Assembly (NCBI GenBank): GCA_030248195.1
Contig: JASAND010018446.1
Coordinates: 1 to 64,000 of the forward strand
DNA from: Trissonchulus latispiculum
Lineage: Eukaryota > Nematoda > Enoplea > Enoplida > Ironidae
Direction of reading: 5' to 3'
Length of the DNA stretch: 64,000 bases
In this document: in pieces, positions 6,755 through 35,324 of the stretch
Layout: each line of letters opens with the position of its first letter
Numbering within the stretch: position 1 is the stretch's first letter
The notes under the pieces: generated by a model
Told to the model about the DNA's origin: nothing
The model's input: the letters and a program-made list of their open reading frames with translations, nothing else
Databases searched by the model: none
Made by a program: the position numbers and the translations under genes

Positions 6755-8058
6755 ATGTCCACAATCAATAGCAGCATTGTGTTGAATCATACTGCCAAAT
6801 CATCAGCTCCCATCGAAGCAGTTTTATGCTCGCTCACTTTGCTCTTTGCTGTCTGTGGTGCCATACTCAACATCTCATTTGCTGTTGCACTGATTAGAAC
6901 TGGTCTCAGGAACAGGCCCATCTATTTTTTTGCAGCTGCATCCTGGGATTCCGTGTTGTGCTTCAGCAGCCTTCCTGTGTGATTCTTGAAAGTAATTTGG
7001 GCGCTTGGGTTTACTGGAAGTTACTCTCCAGTTCAATGCACTCTCTTTAATATGCTGCCCATCACAGGTAAAAATGTTATTGTCTTTAAAACTTCTTTAG
7101 GTGGTTCTATATCCAGAAAAGCAAATATAGTTTTGTGTTTAGCTTGTAGTGTAGGCAAATATTTACACCGAAAGTGCTAACTATCCCATACTAAAAATGA
7201 TTTGATAACTAAAATGTTTCATTAAATGCAAAGACAAGTTATTCCATGAACTCTAATTGTAGTATTATGCTTCCAGCTGCATTAATAACTCTATGGATTG
7301 CCGTCATGATTGCATTTGATCGTGTCCTAGCGGTAACCTTTCCACTTTGGTACGGTACGTCTGCAACAACTAAAGGACGTATGGTATCAGCAGAACTAAT
7401 CATTTTATCGATTAATGCTGTCTATGTCGCTGGATTCCAATTTTATGGGTTACCAGCAAAGTTGACATTATCAGTCTGTTACACTGCAGCATTCACACAT
7501 CCAAAGGTTATCCAGTGCTATGGCTTTAATGTAATGCTTGCAAGTATACTGATACTGATTTTTTATTCGGCGCTAGCTACCATTATTCGATGTAAAACAA
7601 AGCAAGCTGTACGGAGGAGTTTGGCTGGAGGTCAGCAATCTCCTTCTATGAAAAGGCAAGAAGCTGTAACAAACGTTGCATCAAGTGTTGTTGCTGCTAC
7701 ATTGATATTATCAGTTATTCCCAATATATCTTTGCTATTTGCCAGTAGTATGAAAGTGCCAGCTACAAAAATGATTCTGCTCGCTCAAGTATTATCTCTA
7801 ACTACAGCCATTCGCACTTGTGTTTTTGTACTACTACAAATATACCGAGACCAGCAACTGTATAGAATGCTAATTGATTTTGTGATCAGGAAAGAAAGTA
7901 CATCTGCAGCTCACGTCACATTCGTTTTTGCTAACACAGCTGAAACTAGAAGAAACGCATCATCAGGAACAGTGCAAATACAGACTGTTCTGATCCACTG
8001 TTCTGTGGATATAAAACCACTGCTTTGTGAACCTCAAGACATCGTTACTGGCAGTTGA
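6755..8058 (+). pseudogene. Class A-like GPCR, copy 1 (in-frame TGA)
   Basis: The model has two coding exons, 6755-7067 and 7277-8058, with a GT..AG intron of 209 bp, giving 364 codons. Exon 1 holds TM1 and TM2. Exon 2 starts inside TM3, carries the FDRVLAV motif (the DRY-type signature after TM3), then TM4-TM7 and a tail about 50 residues longer than copy 2. A Cys before TM3 and one in the second extracellular loop (about 'VCYT') are present. The NPxxY motif of TM7 is not recognisable, so it is a divergent rhodopsin-like receptor; ligand unknown. Codon 76 (6980-6982) is TGA where copy 2 has Cys TGT. All else is open, so this is either a young pseudogene or a sequencing error. A splice acceptor CAG just upstream of the ATG suggests a 5' UTR exon further left. 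Confidence 0.75.
7068..7276 (+). other. Intron of GPCR copy 1
   Basis: The donor is ACAG|GTAAAA and the acceptor is TTCCAG|CTGC. The same phase-1 split codon (G|CT) and the same position in TM3 are used in copy 2, which supports both gene models. Confidence 0.85.
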
Positions 8059-19859: not shown

Positions 19860-21653
19860 ACTAAAGTCTGACCAAAAATTCTTGGAATCGAAATGTGAGC
19901 GGCTGTCCAGAGTTATCGTTTGAAGGTAGCCTATATAATGTATATATTTTTCGAATCCTCTGGAACCCGAGATTTCGAAAATCCGAAAAAATCCTAAATT
20001 CCGGATTTCATTCACGGAAAATAAGTTTTAGTTTTTCGCCAAATTTTTATCGCAATCAAAATTTGGTTCTGACAGTTGAATAGAGCTTGTCACGCTACAC
20101 ATTTTTGCTCTGAGAAGCTTTTCACGAAAATGCACCCAATTTCCAGAATTCCGGGGTTTCAAAATTACCGGATATTAAAAATTTCCTCCAATACCCACAA
20201 GATGGGTATCATTCGAAAGCTCTTATCGAGCTGAACAACTTTTGTAATAGAACCAACTTGCAGAAATGAGCCCTGTTCTCAGAATTAACGAAAACTTCCA
20301 AGCTAGAGTGAAATCCTGAATTCGTGAATTCCTTGAATTAGGTGCATTTTCAGACATTGGTTCTATTACAAGATTTGTTCAGCTCATCAAGTGCTCTCGA
20401 ATGATACCCATATTGTGGGTATTGGAGAAAGTTTTTAAAATCCGGAAAATCTGGTTTTCGCGAATTCCGGGAATTGAGTGGATTTTCACGAGTTCGTTCT
20501 ATTACAAAAGTTGTTCAGCTCGATAAGAGCTTTCAAATTATAGCCATCTTGTGGGTATTGGAGGAAATTTTTAAAATCCGGTAATTTTGAAAACCCGGAA
20601 TCCCGGAAATTGGGTGCATTTTCGTGAAAAGCTTCTAAGAGCAAACATGTGTAACGGGACCTGCTCTATTCGACTGTCAGAACCAAATTTTGTTTCCGAT
20701 AAAAATTTGGCGAAAAATTAAAAATAAGGATTTTTCGGATTTTCGAAATCTCTGGTTCCTGAGGATTCGAAAAATATATACATTATATTGGCTACCTATA
20801 AATGATAACTCAGGACAGCCGCTCACATTTCGGTTCGACGAAAGACTGTCACGCTACACATTTTTGCTCTGAGAAGCTTTTCACGAAAATGCACCCAATT
20901 TCCGGAATTCCGGGGTTTCAAAATTACCGGATTTTAAAAATTTCCTCCAATACCCACAAGATGGGTATCATTCCAAAGCTCTTATCTAGCTGAACAACTT
21001 TTGTAATAGAACCAACTTGCAGAAATGAGCCCTGTTCTCAGAATTAACGAAAACTTCCAAGCTAGAGTGAAATCGTGAATTCGTGAATTCCTTGAATTAG
21101 GTGCATTTTCAGACATTGGTTCTATTACAAGATTTGTTCAGCTCATAAAGTGCTCTCGAATGATACCCATATTGTGGGTATTGGAGAAAGTTTTTAAAAT
21201 CCGGAAAATCTGGTTTTCGCGAATTCCGGGAATTGAGTGGATTTTCACGAGTTCGTTCTATTACAAAAGTTGTTCAGCTCGATAAGAGCTTTCGAATGAT
21301 AGCCATCTTGTGGGTATTGGAGGAAATTTTTAAAATCCGGTAATTTTGAAAACCCGGAATCCCGGAAATTGGGTGCATTTTCGTGAAAAGCTTCTAAGAG
21401 CAAACATGTGTAGCGGGACCAGCTCTATTCGACTGTCAGAACCAAATTTTGATTCCGATAAAAATTTGGCGAAAAATTAAAAATTTTAAATTTTCCGTGA
21501 ATGAAATTTGGAATTTCGGATTTTTTCGGATTTTCGAAATCTCTGGTTCCTGAGGATTCGAAAAATATATACATTATATTGGCTACCTATAAATGATAAC
21601 TCAGGACAGCCGCTCACATTTCGGTTCCAAGAATTTTTGGTCAGACCTTAGTG
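19860..21653. mobile_element. Palindromic element with internal tandem duplication
   Basis: The ends are inverted copies: 'actaaagtctgaccaaaaat' at 19860 and 'atttttggtcagaccttagt' at about 21652, continuing through 'gtgagcggctgtcc'. Left and right arms of about 370 bp contain the same degenerate inner palindromes ('ccggaattccgg', 'gggtattggagg'). A block of about 760 bp starting near 20087 is repeated almost exactly from 20849, so the unit reads arm, middle, arm, middle, arm. No protein is encoded. Confidence 0.8.
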
Positions 21654-22528: not shown

Positions 22529-22611
22529 CTGTTGGAAACTAGGTCTGTCTGGTAAAGATCAATTAATGTATTGTATTCCTAACTAAAATGAAGGAGTAGA
22601 TATAAAATGCA

Positions 22612-22755
22612 GGCACAAAATATGATCCATTTCTAGTTCAAAACTCGGTGGATCCTACTTGTTCCTAGTTCAAAAGTGGATTCTAGAAAATAGGATCTCC
22701 TGATGTATCCTTTAGCAAAATATGGTTAGTTCAGTGAAGCCTTAACGACAGCACC
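22612..22755 (+). repeat. Left terminal inverted repeat of the Polinton-type element
   Basis: The segment pairs with 26049-26192 in inverted orientation, with roughly 10% mismatches judged by eye. Confidence 0.9.
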
Positions 22756-22919
22756 TCGCAAAGGCGTGGTAAGCCACCAGTTGGAAGAACTTTAAGCAAG
22801 TTTGGTGAAGAACTGCAACAGGAAAGAGAAGGTGTCGGACAAAGACCAGCAAGAAAAGACATAAGAAGGTTAAGAAAACGACAAAAGATTACTAATTCCG
22901 ACGTGTTTAACCACGGCTA

Positions 22920-24287
22920 AGCAAGTTGATGCTAACTCTTTTCCTGGTTTTAAGAGCGAGCTGGATATATTTTCCCTTTCACCGACACAAGTTGCTGTGG
23001 AAAAGGGCTATTGGGCTGAATACTATCCGCAAAATCCTGTCACAGATAGTGGACCTTATCGAATCCATGTTCCCAAAGATTCCTTCATGCTGGATCTAAA
23101 CAAAGATTACTTATATGTAAAGATTAGGATTGTTGACGAAGACGGAAGCAAGCTATCACAGCCTAAGAAAACCGACGGAACTGTAGAAGATGACAAAGTT
23201 GAAGTAGCCCCTATCAATGTTATTGGTTCTACGTTTTTTGAAAGAGTGATTGTTAAGCTAAGTGATAAAGATATGGAAAATAGCAGGCCGTTGTATGCTT
23301 ATAAGTCATATCTGGAAGCACTACTAAACTATGGTTGGGATGCAAAAGCTACTCATCAACAAATGGTAATGTTTTATCAAGATGTAGCGGGTTCCTTTGA
23401 TAAGTTGGCAAGTAAATCAATGCTATGCAGAGGAAAACCTTTTCTTAAAAATAAAGATGTTGAACTACTGTCTCTTCTTCACTGTGACTTATTTAAACAA
23501 GATCGGTACATGTTGAGTGATACTGAAATGGCGACTGAATTGCATCGAAATGCTGACAAATTTGCACTAATGAGCAACGGCACCAAATACAAAGTGAAAG
23601 TGAAAGATTTAAAGTGGTACGTCTGGAAGGTGAAGCCACAGGAATCTCTGAGCTTAGCAATTGAAAATATTCTCCACAGCAATGTAGCTGCGAAATATCC
23701 AGTCAGACGAATTAAAATGGTTACTCAACACCTTGCACCTCAATCTCAAACTGTGGTTGAAAATTCCATCCTTTCCGGACAACTCCCAAGACGTGTTGTG
23801 ATGGTGATGCTGGATTCAGAAGCATTTAAGGGTGCATACAAAAAGAATCCATTCAAGTTGAATCATGTAAAATAACGGAATTATCATTGAAATGTGGTGA
23901 TGACTACATACGAAGGCATCCAGTGAAGATGTCATGGAATGATTTTAATTACTCCATTCCATACAGGTATTTGTATGAAGGGTGTAACATGGCTAATAGT
24001 GACAAAGGACTAGATATTTCTTACGAAGAGTACGGTAATGGATTCACGGTGTTCATTTAACCGTTGACAATGTAGATGGAAGTGCTATGGAATTGATTAG
24101 AGAAGGAGATTTATTTCTGTATATGCAATTAAAGGAACCACTTAGTCGCCGTTCTCAAGGTGTGGATGTTATAATTTATGGTGAATTTGATAACCTGATC
24201 ACAATCAATCACATCCGAACACCGTTTCTGATTATGCTGAGTGACTATTCATATGAACAATCAATAATGACTCATTTAATAAAATAA
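22920..24287 (+). pseudogene. Capsid-family protein of Polinton-type elements (F54H12.2-like), frameshifted
   Basis: The main open part (to the TAA at 23873-23875) begins without an ATG; coding-like sequence in the same frame extends upstream to about 22900. It includes 'KGYWAEYYPQNP', 'RPLYAYKSYLEALLNYG' and 'GQLPRRVVMVMLD' stretches that I associate with the protein annotated 'F54H12.2-like' in many animal genomes and carried by Polintons. After 23875 the match continues in other frames, ending with an open segment 24087-24287 that contains 'GVDVIIYGEFDNLI', the usual C-terminal part of this family. At least two frame changes and the missing start make it non-functional. Role in intact relatives: virion structural protein, inferred. 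Confidence 0.7.
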
Positions 24288-24289
24288 TG

Positions 24290-24830
24290 AATACGATTTT
24301 CTTGCTTGGATTAATATACCTTTGCCCTGGCTGCAAATGACATAACTTACGTTGCCGATGAATTTAACCTTGTTGTGGAGGTGGAGGCACTTTCACAGGC
24401 ATGAATTTGGAGCTTGGAAATAGAAGCATTGTCATAGAGGATGGTGATCGCTTGCAGGCAGACGCAGCACTGGGATGTTAAAACCGCCCGTGTCATAGAT
24501 TCTTTCGAATGATTTCTTTATCAACGGAGGTGATCGCTTTCGTTAATTAGCCAAATTAATCAATTAGTCTTTATGTATTGTTCTTACTACTTGAGTGGTC
24601 GACTGAGGGATTAGTCTTTGTATTACCATATAGTATTTGCTGTGTATTATTGGTACTTCCTTATCATCATAATAATAGTATGTCTTTATCAGTAACACAA
24701 TTACGCTTTTCCAGTTTTTTAGGGGGGGGTTTAGTTTTTTGGGTGGGGTTTTTTTTTCGGTGAGGTTGCCCGTTTGCAGTCGTTTAGCCATTTAATTACC
24801 GGTAGATACCGGACAGTTTGCCGGTAGTTA
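24290..24830. other. Intergenic part of the Polinton-type element
   Basis: No reading frame with a recognisable domain. A G/T-rich low-complexity stretch is at 24716-24764. A 'taccggtagataccgg' palindrome-like motif is at about 24798. Confidence 0.4.
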
Positions 24831-24833
24831 ATA

Positions 24834-25440
24834 GTGAGATTACCAATCATACTATGGAGAAGCCTTGGGTGTGCATACTTGGAATGGTATCAGTGCTGGG
24901 AATACTGCTACGATAAAAATAGAAAGATGATGTATTTGCATGATAAAATGAATGACCTTAAGATTATCAAGAATATTCATATGAATCTATTACGAGGAGC
25001 ACTAGAAGGATATTATGAATAGCTTGGAGATAGAGGAAACTGTCACCAAAAATTCCTGTGTAAGTAAAACTTGGTGTTTTCAAGTGCTACACTACGAGAT
25101 GTTAGAACACGAACTGCTTGCTTTGTTCTAAACACGGACCCTTCTGATGAGCCAGGACAGCATTGGATTGCGATGTATTTTGATAAGTATGCGGAATATT
25201 TTGACAGCTATGGACTGGATCCAATTGAACAATGTCTCCCATATAAACCTGTCATAAATTATTTTTGCCAACAAGACTTCGAGCAAATGTGTGTAGTGAA
25301 TATTGTATTTTCTTTTTAATTAAAAGGTATTGTGGTTGGAGTTGTGAAGAAATCATAAACTATTTAGAAAAAGACCGGACAATAACGATTCCATTGTTCG
25401 TCATTTTGTTGATGAGCTACGTGTGTTTAAACAATCATCT
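24834..25440 (+). pseudogene. Adenovirus-type (Ulp1-fold) cysteine protease of Polintons, broken
   Basis: The best part is 25071-25319. It contains FVLNTDPSDEPGQHWIAMYF-type sequence (the catalytic His lies in 'QHW') and 'EYFDSYG' (the acidic partner). A TYR-CYS-GLY triplet that would carry the nucleophile lies beyond the stop in another frame at 25328-25336. The N-terminal part from 24834 is in a different state, with stops at 25019-25021 and near 25063. In intact Polintons this enzyme matures capsid proteins. The order His, Asp, Cys and the 'NTD....HW' context are the evidence. It cannot make a complete enzyme as it stands. Confidence 0.65.
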
Positions 25441-25463
25441 GTAGCGCAATGTTGTAGATCACG

Positions 25464-25962
25464 ATGCAGATAGTTAACGTTGTGCTTCACGAAAGGTTTG
25501 GCTCCCAAATTAATCTGAATATAGTACCAAACGCCATTTATGAACCTCGCCGATTCAGCGGTACTGTTATTGCTCATCCACCATGCACATTTCTGGTGTT
25601 CTCGTCAGGAAGTTTTGTTTGTCTTGGAGCTAAAAGTATAGATGAAGGTACTAACTAACTGTGCGCGATAGATGGCTTTACGGTTACATTTGGAGATACA
25701 AAACATTTCAACAAAACATATAGTACTGTTTTATAATATGTGTGGTAAGGTCGACTTGTACTCACTCTACGAATACCTGAGAAAGAATCACACTACCGTC
25801 AGCTTGGAACCAGAACTTTTTAACGGAATGACATGGAAGCAACGGGGTGGAACTGTCAGTGTTTTCTATACAGAAAAATTTTTCGTCACAGAAGTCTCAG
25901 AAGAACACAAACTGTTTGATATTGCTGAAGACGTAATAAATGTTTGTAGTATGTTTATGTAA
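25464..25962 (+). pseudogene. TATA-binding-protein-like gene inside the Polinton-type element (one frameshift)
   Basis: Two open parts, 25464-25658 and 25672-25962, match the two pseudo-symmetric repeats of TBP. Repeat 1 has 'NAIYEPRRFSGTVI' and 'FLVFSSGSFVCLGAKS'. Repeat 2 has 'LEIQNIS', 'SLEPELFNGM' and 'VSVFYTEKFFVTE'. All four phenylalanines that kink TATA DNA in TBP have a counterpart: RRF and VFSSG in repeat 1, ELF and VFY in repeat 2. The linker between repeats is short and contains a frame change between 25655 and 25672. An AATAAATAAA polyadenylation signal follows at 25964-25973. It is clearly divergent from cellular TBP, so it is not a recent host copy. A transcription-initiation role for the element's own genes is an inference. 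Confidence 0.8.
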
Positions 25963-26048: not shown

Positions 26049-26192
26049 GGTGCTGTCGTTAAGGCTTGACCGAACTAACCATATTCTGCTATAGGATACA
26101 TCAGAAGCTCCAATTTTCTAGGATCTACTTTTGAACCAGGAGCAAGTAGTATCCACCGAGTTTTGAACTAGAATTGGATCCTATTTTGTGCC
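26049..26192 (-). repeat. Right terminal inverted repeat of the Polinton-type element
   Basis: Inverted partner of 22612-22755; it begins just downstream of the TBP-like gene. Confidence 0.9.
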
Positions 26193-26218
26193 AGAATCGC
26201 CATTTTATTTCTACTTGA

Positions 26219-26550
26219 AGGTGGTGATTCCTTTTAGGGTACTATTGTTGTTGTTAGTCCAAATCAAGTGCAAATTTGATGAATGTTTCAAAATTACTTC
26301 TTTTAGCGTTCTAGGATCTTGGAGCAATCCATCCCGCTTCGAAAGTCGGCAATTCCATTCGGGGTTAATTTAGCCTTTTTCTAACAGTTGGCTAGCTGCT
26401 ACATAGCTATAGCCAGCCATACTCATTCGAAAGATCTCGTTACGCTCTACATTTTGTAATGAATGAGTAACTCTCGTAATGAATGAGTAACTCTCATAAT
26501 GAATGAGTAATAACGGTTCAAATTTGATGATTCTAAGAGGAATCACCACC
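26219..26550 (+). mobile_element. MITE family 1, shortened copy
   Basis: The left end 'aaggtggtgattcctttt' and the right end 'aggaatcaccacc' followed by TTAA match the family. The body is internally deleted relative to 18.2 kb. A 21-bp unit 'gtaatgaatgagtaactctc' is repeated in tandem at about 26456-26508. It lies 27 bp from the Polinton-type element. Confidence 0.8.
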
Positions 26551-34125: not shown

Positions 34126-35324
34126 ATGACTGGACTAAATGGCAGCAGTGTGTTTAATGAAACATACGGATCTCCAAACTACGCAGAAATAATTCTATGT
34201 TGCTGCACTCTATTTTGTGTTGTTTGCGGCTTCATTCTAAACGTCTTATTCGCCATTGTACTAGCTAAAACTGGCTTCAAGAACAGACCTGTCTACTTTT
34301 TCGCATCCTCTGCATGGGATACAGTGATGTGTTTCAGCAGCATTCCTGTGTGTTCCATCAAAGTAGTTTGGGCGCTTGGGTTCACAGGAAGCTATACCTC
34401 ATTTCAGTGCACTTTGTTAAACGTTGTTCCCATAACAGGTATGTAGTCGTAATTGTTTTATTATCAACTGTTTTGTATGCGTAGCTTAAACAAGCTAATC
34501 TTATTTCTATGTATGCAATCTCAAATAACTAACTTTTCTATGTTCTTTATAAGTGTTCTAAGTTTTAATATATGGAAACAAGTTAAGGCTTGCTTCGTCC
34601 CTGAGTGCTAAATACATTTCACACATTCGCACAAACTCCTTGGACATAGAAAGAAATTATGATATCAATACTCTATTCTGGAATTTTTGTAGCTGTAATT
34701 ACTACACTATGGATTGCGACCGCAATGGCATTTGATCGAGTCTTGGCTGTATTGTTTCCTTTCTGGTACAGTTCGTCAGCAGCAGCTAAGAGACGTATCG
34801 CCTTTGTAGCCTTAACTGCTGTAACGTGCAACGCAGTTGGATTAGGCGGTTTTCAATTTTATGGATTACCACCAAGAGTAATATTATTAGTCTGCTACAC
34901 GGTGGCTTTTACACATCCAAAGGTCGTACAGTGCTATGGTTTCAACGTGATGCTTGCCAGTATTTTCATCCTCATATTGTATATCGTGTTGGCTATATCA
35001 ATTCGATGTAAGACAAATAATGCTGTGTGCGGAAGTGTAGCAGGCAGCTACCTCAATGGTACTATGAAAAGACAAGAAATTGTGACCAAGAGTGCGACAC
35101 GCATTATTGCTGCGACACTGATACTATCTGTTTTTCCTAACATTCCTGTGCTGCTTGCCAAGCGCATGATGGTAGCGGAGACAAGCATGATCCTGCTCAC
35201 TCAAATATTATCTCTAACGACAGCTATACGTGCTTGTGTTTTTGTACTACTGCAAATCCATCGAGACCAGCAACTCTGTAGAATGATTGTTGGTTTGGTT
35301 CTATGGAAAAGCGCTTCTGCATGA
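34126..35324 (+). CDS. Class A-like G-protein-coupled receptor, copy 2 (intact)
   Basis: Two coding exons, 34126-34438 and 34693-35324, give 314 aa. The N-terminus MTGLNGSSVFNETYG has two N-glycosylation sites and no signal peptide. TM1 lies at about residues 22-45, TM2 about 53-78, TM3 about 92-116 ending AFDRVLAVLFPFWY, with TM4-TM7 in exon 2. A Cys before TM3 (FQC) and one in extracellular loop 2 (VCYT) can form the usual disulfide. TM7 lacks NPxxY and ends 'VFVLLQIHRDQQL'. It is therefore a divergent rhodopsin-class receptor whose ligand I cannot predict. AATAAA at about 35331 follows the stop. Copies at 6.75 kb (one stop) and 13.9 kb (fragment) share its layout, so it is one of a tandemly spread family. 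Confidence 0.88.
34439..34692 (+). other. Intron of GPCR copy 2
   Basis: Donor ACAG|GTATGT and acceptor TTGTAG|CTGT; phase 1, the same place as in copy 1. Confidence 0.88.

Follow-up and report, generated by a model that had tools for sequence, protein, structure and literature searches.

A TATA-binding-protein gene in nematode Polintons and its probable role in initiating transcription of the elements' own late genes

Polinton (Maverick) elements in the genome of the nematode Trissonchulus latispiculum carry a gene for a TATA-binding protein (TBP) at the end of their capsid module. The gene is under purifying selection, and its product probably initiates transcription of the late genes of the element itself by way of a conserved box upstream of several of them. 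The starting point was a decayed copy in the window, i.e. the whole stretch of 64,000 nucleotides that was analysed (contig JASAND010018446.1, positions 1 to 64,000).

The segment 22595-26215 of the window is a dead, internally deleted Polinton with TBP as its last gene (Table 1). Both Polinton/Maverick hallmarks, terminal inverted repeats and a 6-bp target-site duplication (TGAAGG on both sides), are present, which bears out the type of element proposed in the initial annotation. The element, with the ends AGTAGA...TCTACT, is only 3,621 bp long because it has been internally deleted; compared with the intact relative L027, the lost stretch starts at the left terminal repeat and extends to where the core gene ends. 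The integrase has been lost, and remnants of the major capsid protein (MCP), a small ORF, an adenain-like protease and TBP are retained. The gene had been placed between inverted repeats of 144 bp; it does lie inside the repeats, but these are longer, with 149-nt arms which reach about 166 bp once aligned out to the element termini and are 89% complementary. Its location downstream of the capsid and protease remnants, on the same strand, and a AATAAATAAA of its own, read from the sequence directly after 25962, proved to be as described. A box comparable to the one before the MCP frame of the window element lies at -47 to -57 of MCP in 6/6 representative relatives. In some groups the small ORF between MCP and protease begins, as judged by eye, with a hydrophobic stretch resembling a signal, and a Pfam match was not found for the L027 copy.

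Table 1. Features of the decayed Polinton in the window
Feature	Position	Strand	Evidence or remark
Target-site duplication, left, TGAAGG	22589..22594	no strand	identical to 26216-26221
Left terminal inverted repeat, starts AGTAGA	22595..22760	+	arm alignment; inner end approximate
TATA-like box CATAAGAA	22860..22867	+	by eye; 53 nt 5' of the codon aligning with the MCP start of relatives
MCP frame, main part, broken	22874..23875	+	64% identity to P0001
MCP C-terminal pieces, other frames	23830..24287	+	by-eye match with P0001
Small-ORF remnant between MCP and protease	24828..25022	+	by eye; relatives L027:7297-7710, L047, L051
Adenain-like cysteine protease remnant, two frames	25068..25444	+	PF00770 0.022, below cut-off, first frame only
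TBP-like gene, repeat 1, stop at end	25464..25658	+	PF00352 2.3e-13
TBP-like gene, repeat 2, other frame	25672..25962	+	PF00352 7.3e-5; 82% identity to intact L027 relative
Right terminal inverted repeat, end TCTACT	26049..26215	-	arm alignment
Target-site duplication, right, TGAAGG	26216..26221	no strand	identical to left copy

The identification of the two open segments as the two TBP repeats is upheld by the Pfam profile search, in which both exceed the PF00352 cut-off of 22.9 bits, the first at 25464-25655 with 50.2 bits and the second at 25672-25959, which is the weaker half, just barely with 23.0 bits. A sequence search of solved TBPs in the PDB gave a best value of 1.3e-15 for the repeat-1 piece, while for the repeat-2 piece alone neither a TBP in the PDB by sequence nor a match in the protein database was found. 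As a stop and a change of frame separate the two pieces, the TBP copy in the window is broken. Searches of viral_contigs with MCP and TBP and of phages with MCP found nothing, and PHROGs gave weak rows only. Elsewhere in the window, a dense array of repeats, each about 100-300 bp long and in direct or inverted orientation, occupies 20023-21485, and the segment 52272-56643 (-) has tyrosine-recombinase, reverse transcriptase/RNase H and Dam-like matches, which we take to be a DIRS-like retroelement. A pair of chemoreceptor-like frames, alike by eye, is located at 7213-8058 and 34650-35324 (+); the first matches the nematode-type Srsx family weakly (23.4 bits, just under the cut-off of 24.1), a hint of a nematode host.

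The genome assembly (733.8 Mb, 21,732 contigs) contains many further copies. With the first TBP piece as query the best 150 of 669 candidate places were scored, with a divergent Polinton TBP the best 150 of 873, so that copy numbers are minimum values; most of the scored rows contain no internal stop. Among the MCP places, the best 96 of 1,675 candidates were scored. A same-strand TBP match within 2.5 kb downstream accompanies 37/96 of them when the list from the first piece is used alone; with both lists combined, 86/96 have such a match at a distance of 359-1,638 bases, where a match may also be a broken copy. The 10 MCP places without a TBP match nearby include L050, which is cut off right after the protease, and one on C20427 with only 187 bases left downstream. 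Six MCP loci sampled for having no listed TBP consist of five with a TBP frame after all and the truncated L050.

The composition of the module becomes apparent from 20 loci picked by their TBP match (L027-L046), 19 of which hold other Polinton genes, 17 an integrase match and 13 the run from ATPase to TBP, in L046 with the core gene unseen. The order is ATPase, u (a small ORF), PC1, integrase, penton (PX), core, MCP, protease and TBP, where u, PC1, PX and core are to be taken as working names, and L027 and L030 have an additional small ORF between MCP and protease. The frames mostly abut or overlap, and in 11 of the 12 loci of the main clade (clade 1) that were examined the TBP frame overlaps that of the protease by 10-50 nt; in the remaining one, L041, no protease frame of 90 aa is left. 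The TBP of the relatives, about 164-185 aa long, closes the capsid module. ATPase, protease, capsid and penton genes recur as syntenic families, with reference Pfam scores under the curated cut-offs (ATPase 16.9 against 22.8, protease 19.7 against 21.3, and capsid 24.4 bits against 27 for the double jelly roll PF21738). PX is probably the penton, given an AlphaFold model of modest confidence (pLDDT 67.6) that resembles the mavirus minor capsid protein and adomavirus LO5 at query TM-scores of 0.36-0.48. A DNA polymerase B (PolB) sequence was seen as a single fragment beside one module (L046:379-909) in the sequence covered, mostly the right halves of the elements.

Outside this genome, Polinton contigs were encountered within bacterial genome bins, some of them from tubeworm and mussel symbionts (L001-L006), which are probably eukaryotic contamination given the bins in which they reside. 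L001, filed under a Planctomycetota bin, combines Polinton genes with a TBP of 174 aa (PF00352, 1.9e-45) on the opposite strand beside the ATPase. In L002-L006, of which L002, L004, L005 and L006 are short contigs, TBP was not found. The integrase profile PF00665 is matched by the references L002 (3.5e-13) and L001 (3.7e-7, below cut-off). An unbroken TBP next to polymerase, integrase and ATPase genes had been proposed as a check: integrase and ATPase are indeed its neighbours, in the same genome and in L001 elsewhere, and PolB is represented by the one fragment in L046.

Several arrangements were noted on the way. Two Polinton modules run in opposite directions on one contig (L029:314-9194), and two TBP copies in opposite orientation share another (L042:4097-5440). 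Polintons also contain a NADAR-domain gene (PF08719, 2.9e-36 to 6e-41; L027:986-1795, L031:2138-2821 and L058:832-1350, all +), which in clade 1 is preceded by weak C2H2 zinc-finger matches. NADAR proteins are an ADP-ribose-removing family, and the gene may therefore be a counter-defence gene.

The TBP genes are under purifying selection. Four pairs with dS below 1 have dN/dS ratios of 0.12 (A-B), 0.11 (C-C), 0.17 (F-F) and 0.12 (J-J), pairs with a dS of 1.4-3.5 have ratios of 0.10-0.32, and synonymous sites are saturated in most of the pairs between groups. The clade-1 groups of this genome are 37-74% identical to each other at the protein level and 23-29% identical to yeast and human TBP, and four environmental proteins, P0010-P0013, are closely related to them, with 42-45% identity to the first query row. 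For P0010, which is a relative and not the window copy, the structure model (pLDDT 93.4) reaches TM-scores of up to 0.90 (1jfi, 1qn7), and its 44 PDB matches with E <= 0.001 are all TBPs or TBP-containing chains; the two-repeat TBP saddle is thus predicted to be kept in this relative.

In six representative elements the motif NATAARAN occurs in 30/52 upstream windows of 130 bases, compared with 14.7% of 8,811 background windows and 1/52 on the reverse strand. The stricter form [AC]ATAARAR, counted at -110 to -25, is present in 27/52, while synonymous-codon shuffles give a mean of 9.9 and a maximum of 15, and 0/400 reach 27. The genes which exceed the shuffles are u (6/6), integrase (INT, 4/6, shuffle mean 0.51), PX (5/6, 0.35) and MCP (6/6, 0.45). 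The ATPase windows (6/6, null mean 6.0) are no test of the box, because this stretch is non-coding and was not shuffled. At the same distance no [AC]ATAARAR was found for PC1 (0/5), core (0/6), protease (0/5) and TBP (0/6), and sites of the NATAARAN type lie further upstream of several of these four. As the motif had been chosen on the six elements, three held-out groups were tested for INT, PX and MCP: 9/9 windows contain the box, with a shuffle maximum of 7 and 0/2000 shuffles reaching 9, where the nine windows are not independent since groups J and K are related (TBPs 72% identical). The box is also strongly strand-biased in the six modules (50 forward, 2 reverse), and more weakly so in whole 10-kb loci (13/3 in L030, 11/3 in L031, 8/6 in L044 and 4/2 in L053).

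Instead of promoters, the sites might represent poly(A) signals or a product of codon choice, which we regard as unlikely. Some of them contain AATAAA, and sites of that type could be poly(A) signals; those before the ATPase are intergenic and no more frequent than their null, and the held-out shuffles still give 2.77 of 9 on average. Against this reading, the INT, PX and MCP sites fall where the preceding gene is still coding and remain above the synonymous shuffles there, and every held-out window has the box. Judged by these comparisons, the box is conserved and promoter-like, and synonymous-codon shuffles do not explain it. The proposal that this lineage encoded its own initiation factor for its late genes thereby gains support from sequence conservation. 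Among the contigs from bacterial bins, L001 has TATAAAAA before MCP and u, and in L002-L005, where TBP was not detected, the PX and MCP starts that were checked have no [AC]ATAARAR ahead of them. TATAAAAG or TATAAGAG sites do occur in the contigs L002-L005, and L003 has one CATAAAAA before u; given such sites in L003-L005, the box is not linked exclusively with TBP. A herpes-like TATT box was considered and rejected, as it is not enriched upstream of the genes (0.33 against a background of 0.48). TATA is as frequent before genes as in the background (0.40 each), and TATAAA is found at 0.18 against 0.08, so that a standard box before some genes is possible.

The residues at the DNA and TFIIB surfaces were compared, in yeast numbering, over clade 1, its environmental relatives and L001, with clades 2 and 3 (see below) left out. 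N69, N159, F99, F207 and E188 are conserved wherever a Polinton row includes the column, and F116 in all aligned Polinton rows except P0013, which has Tyr. F190 is Tyr in groups C-H. The earlier statement that all four DNA-kinking phenylalanines are kept is therefore true of the window copy (by eye) and of group A, but not in general, the third being replaced in groups C-H. V203 is replaced by Thr in all Polinton rows, as it is in P0014, a protein not known to come from a Polinton. L205 is replaced by Arg in every row of clade 1, though not in L001. Positions 194, 203 and 205 reportedly alter the TATA specificity of yeast TBP (Strubin and Struhl 1992). K133, K138 and K145, on the side of yeast TBP which we take to be the TFIIA contact, are not kept as a set. 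From plant TBP it is known that three changes in the second repeat allow the use of TGTAAA and other variants, and that E146 of Arabidopsis TBP2 is the main TFIIB contact, according to the portion of PMC10005294 available; by the Phe numbering given there, the invariant E188 in the C-terminal stirrup corresponds to E146.

An invariant TFIIB contact combined with an altered TFIIA side would permit the sequestration of factors, i.e. a decoy or hijacker that titrates TFIIB and other factors or occupies host promoters and thereby shuts down or redirects host transcription. This is quite unlikely, as most of the DNA-contact features tested are kept and a conserved box is found upstream of several genes of the element. 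For an initiation factor of the element's own genes, the binding, specificity, timing and host partners which we infer would be as follows. The Polinton TBP would bind and bend the [AC]ATAARAR box and, once bound, recruit TFIIB and RNA polymerase II of the host to the late genes of the element (integrase, penton, capsid), while being freed from some of the host regulators of TBP. The changes V203T and L205R in the second repeat of clade 1 would be compatible with a TATA box that is altered in its 5' half. Such a protein may be likened to the viral TBP-like factors of beta/gamma-herpesviruses, with their late TATT boxes, and of giant viruses.

Yeast TBP as query, with the best 150 of 648 candidate places scored, retrieved the host gene and two more TBP families, each read in one frame (clades 2 and 3); two loci were inspected in each clade, and the remaining rows were counted by frame length alone. 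The frames of clade 2 are about 175 aa long (173-176 aa in 45 of the first 60 rows listed), and in L058, which L061 resembles by eye, the gene is situated between the NADAR gene and a small PX-like gene, with MCP following at a distance. In clade 3, TBP and a penton-like part make up a single fused frame (L059:454-1686 and L060:166-1383, both -), with frames of 385-437 aa in 28 of the 150 rows scored out of 648. The L059 fusion follows the integrase gene; the C parts of L059 and L060 match the PX profile (3.4e-7 and 6e-5), that of L060 being 36% identical to that of L059. The TBP parts are matched by PF00352 at 5.4e-34 (L058) and 3.9e-29 (L059). The fusion raises, but does not show, the delivery of TBP in the particle. 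A wider model, in which TBP is a core and repeatedly relocated gene of a Polinton radiation, in this host and others, that reads a rewritten TATA code with its own initiation factor, and in which the penton fusion of one clade carries the factor in the particle to start transcription on entry, we hold to be possible at most and somewhat doubtful. A TBP in or on the particle would also suit a role outside transcription, in guiding integration or DNA packaging, for example by targeting promoters or by bending the DNA on which the integrase acts; this is very unlikely, leaving as it does the box upstream of several genes unexplained.

The host TBP is a separate, split gene distinct from the Polinton TBPs, lying over two places of C14517 that are 76% and 69% identical to yeast TBP. 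In the tree, clade 1 and its environmental relatives form one branch (support 100/99), and all Polinton TBPs including L001 are on one side, where the support of 93/84 is not firm and L059 has a long branch. In a previous tree, from which clades 2 and 3 were absent, L001 stood beside clade 1 (96/92). The initial annotation would have been overturned by relatives that lack the gene together with a TBP grouping within host TBPs; what was found is a gene that recurs, a host TBP that is separate and split, and a Polinton side in the tree. That the gene is a bystander, a host copy inserted into one Polinton by chance, is hardly credible and was rejected: TBP is ultimately a cellular family and trees do not reject a host TBP that groups with those of the Polintons (AU p 0.49), so that the gene may at some time have been captured from a host, but the copies are syntenic, at a fixed place by 86 of the 96 scored MCPs in groups that are mostly saturated at synonymous sites, and they are selected, read in one frame and far from yeast and human TBP, the host gene being a normal split TBP.

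Viral TBPs have so far come from large viruses (herpesviruses and giant viruses). If the Polinton TBP functions as suggested, a private TBP with a matching box would give an element of roughly 13-25 kb a self-contained switch for transcription that is very small, the element size being that given for vertebrate Mavericks in the part of PMC8097293 available. It could then help to explain how Polintons separate virus-like and silent phases in their host, and TBP would be a marker gene for a Polinton radiation. The evolution of TBP outside cells, including changes at the positions associated with TATA specificity, becomes directly testable. Viral TBPs as such are already known, and the Polinton TBP is newly seen within the open-licence literature covered: in what was available of it (PMC12220804 included, subscription papers being outside its scope), a Polinton TBP was not found reported, and the words 'tata' and 'tbp' occur 0 times each in the main text of PMC8097293 and PMC10120064. 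TATA-binding proteins are mentioned for elements without polymerase or double-jelly-roll genes, near a discussion of mirusviruses, in PMC10675990.

Among known systems, vertebrate Polintons/Mavericks share the ATPase, integrase, protease and major and minor capsid genes, 5' AGT-type ends and terminal inverted repeats, as far as the available text of PMC8097293 goes. With cellular TBP (PF00352; 1cdw, 1ytb, 1qn7) the Polinton proteins have in common the saddle, as modelled for P0010, the minor-groove Asn pair, the kinking aromatics and the TFIIB-contact Glu. They are unlike it in that helix H1, the linker and loops of clade 1 have undergone deletions and that clade 1 has the V203T and L205R changes and, in groups C-H, Tyr for the third kinking Phe. 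Giant viruses and ASFV (pB263R) likewise encode TBP homologues (PMC5825884, in part), CpV-BQ1 being one giant virus with a TBP (PMC12085832, in part), and the nearest viral folds to P0010 among the 50 BFVD matches listed are giant-virus and ASFV TBPs, with query TM-scores of at most 0.84 and identities of at most 20%. Giant viruses differ, however, by being large and in some cases having their own RNA polymerase (PMC11464507, in part). The closest functional parallel may be drawn with the TBP-like late-gene factors of herpesviruses, BcRF1 of EBV, ORF24 of KSHV and UL87 of CMV, which also use a non-standard TATA box, the TATT box; according to the accessible portion of PMC4893493, these have about 10% overall identity to TBP and act with five further viral proteins. 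The Polinton TBP, by contrast, has clear sequence homology to TBP and, in clades 1 and 2, a frame made up of TBP only.
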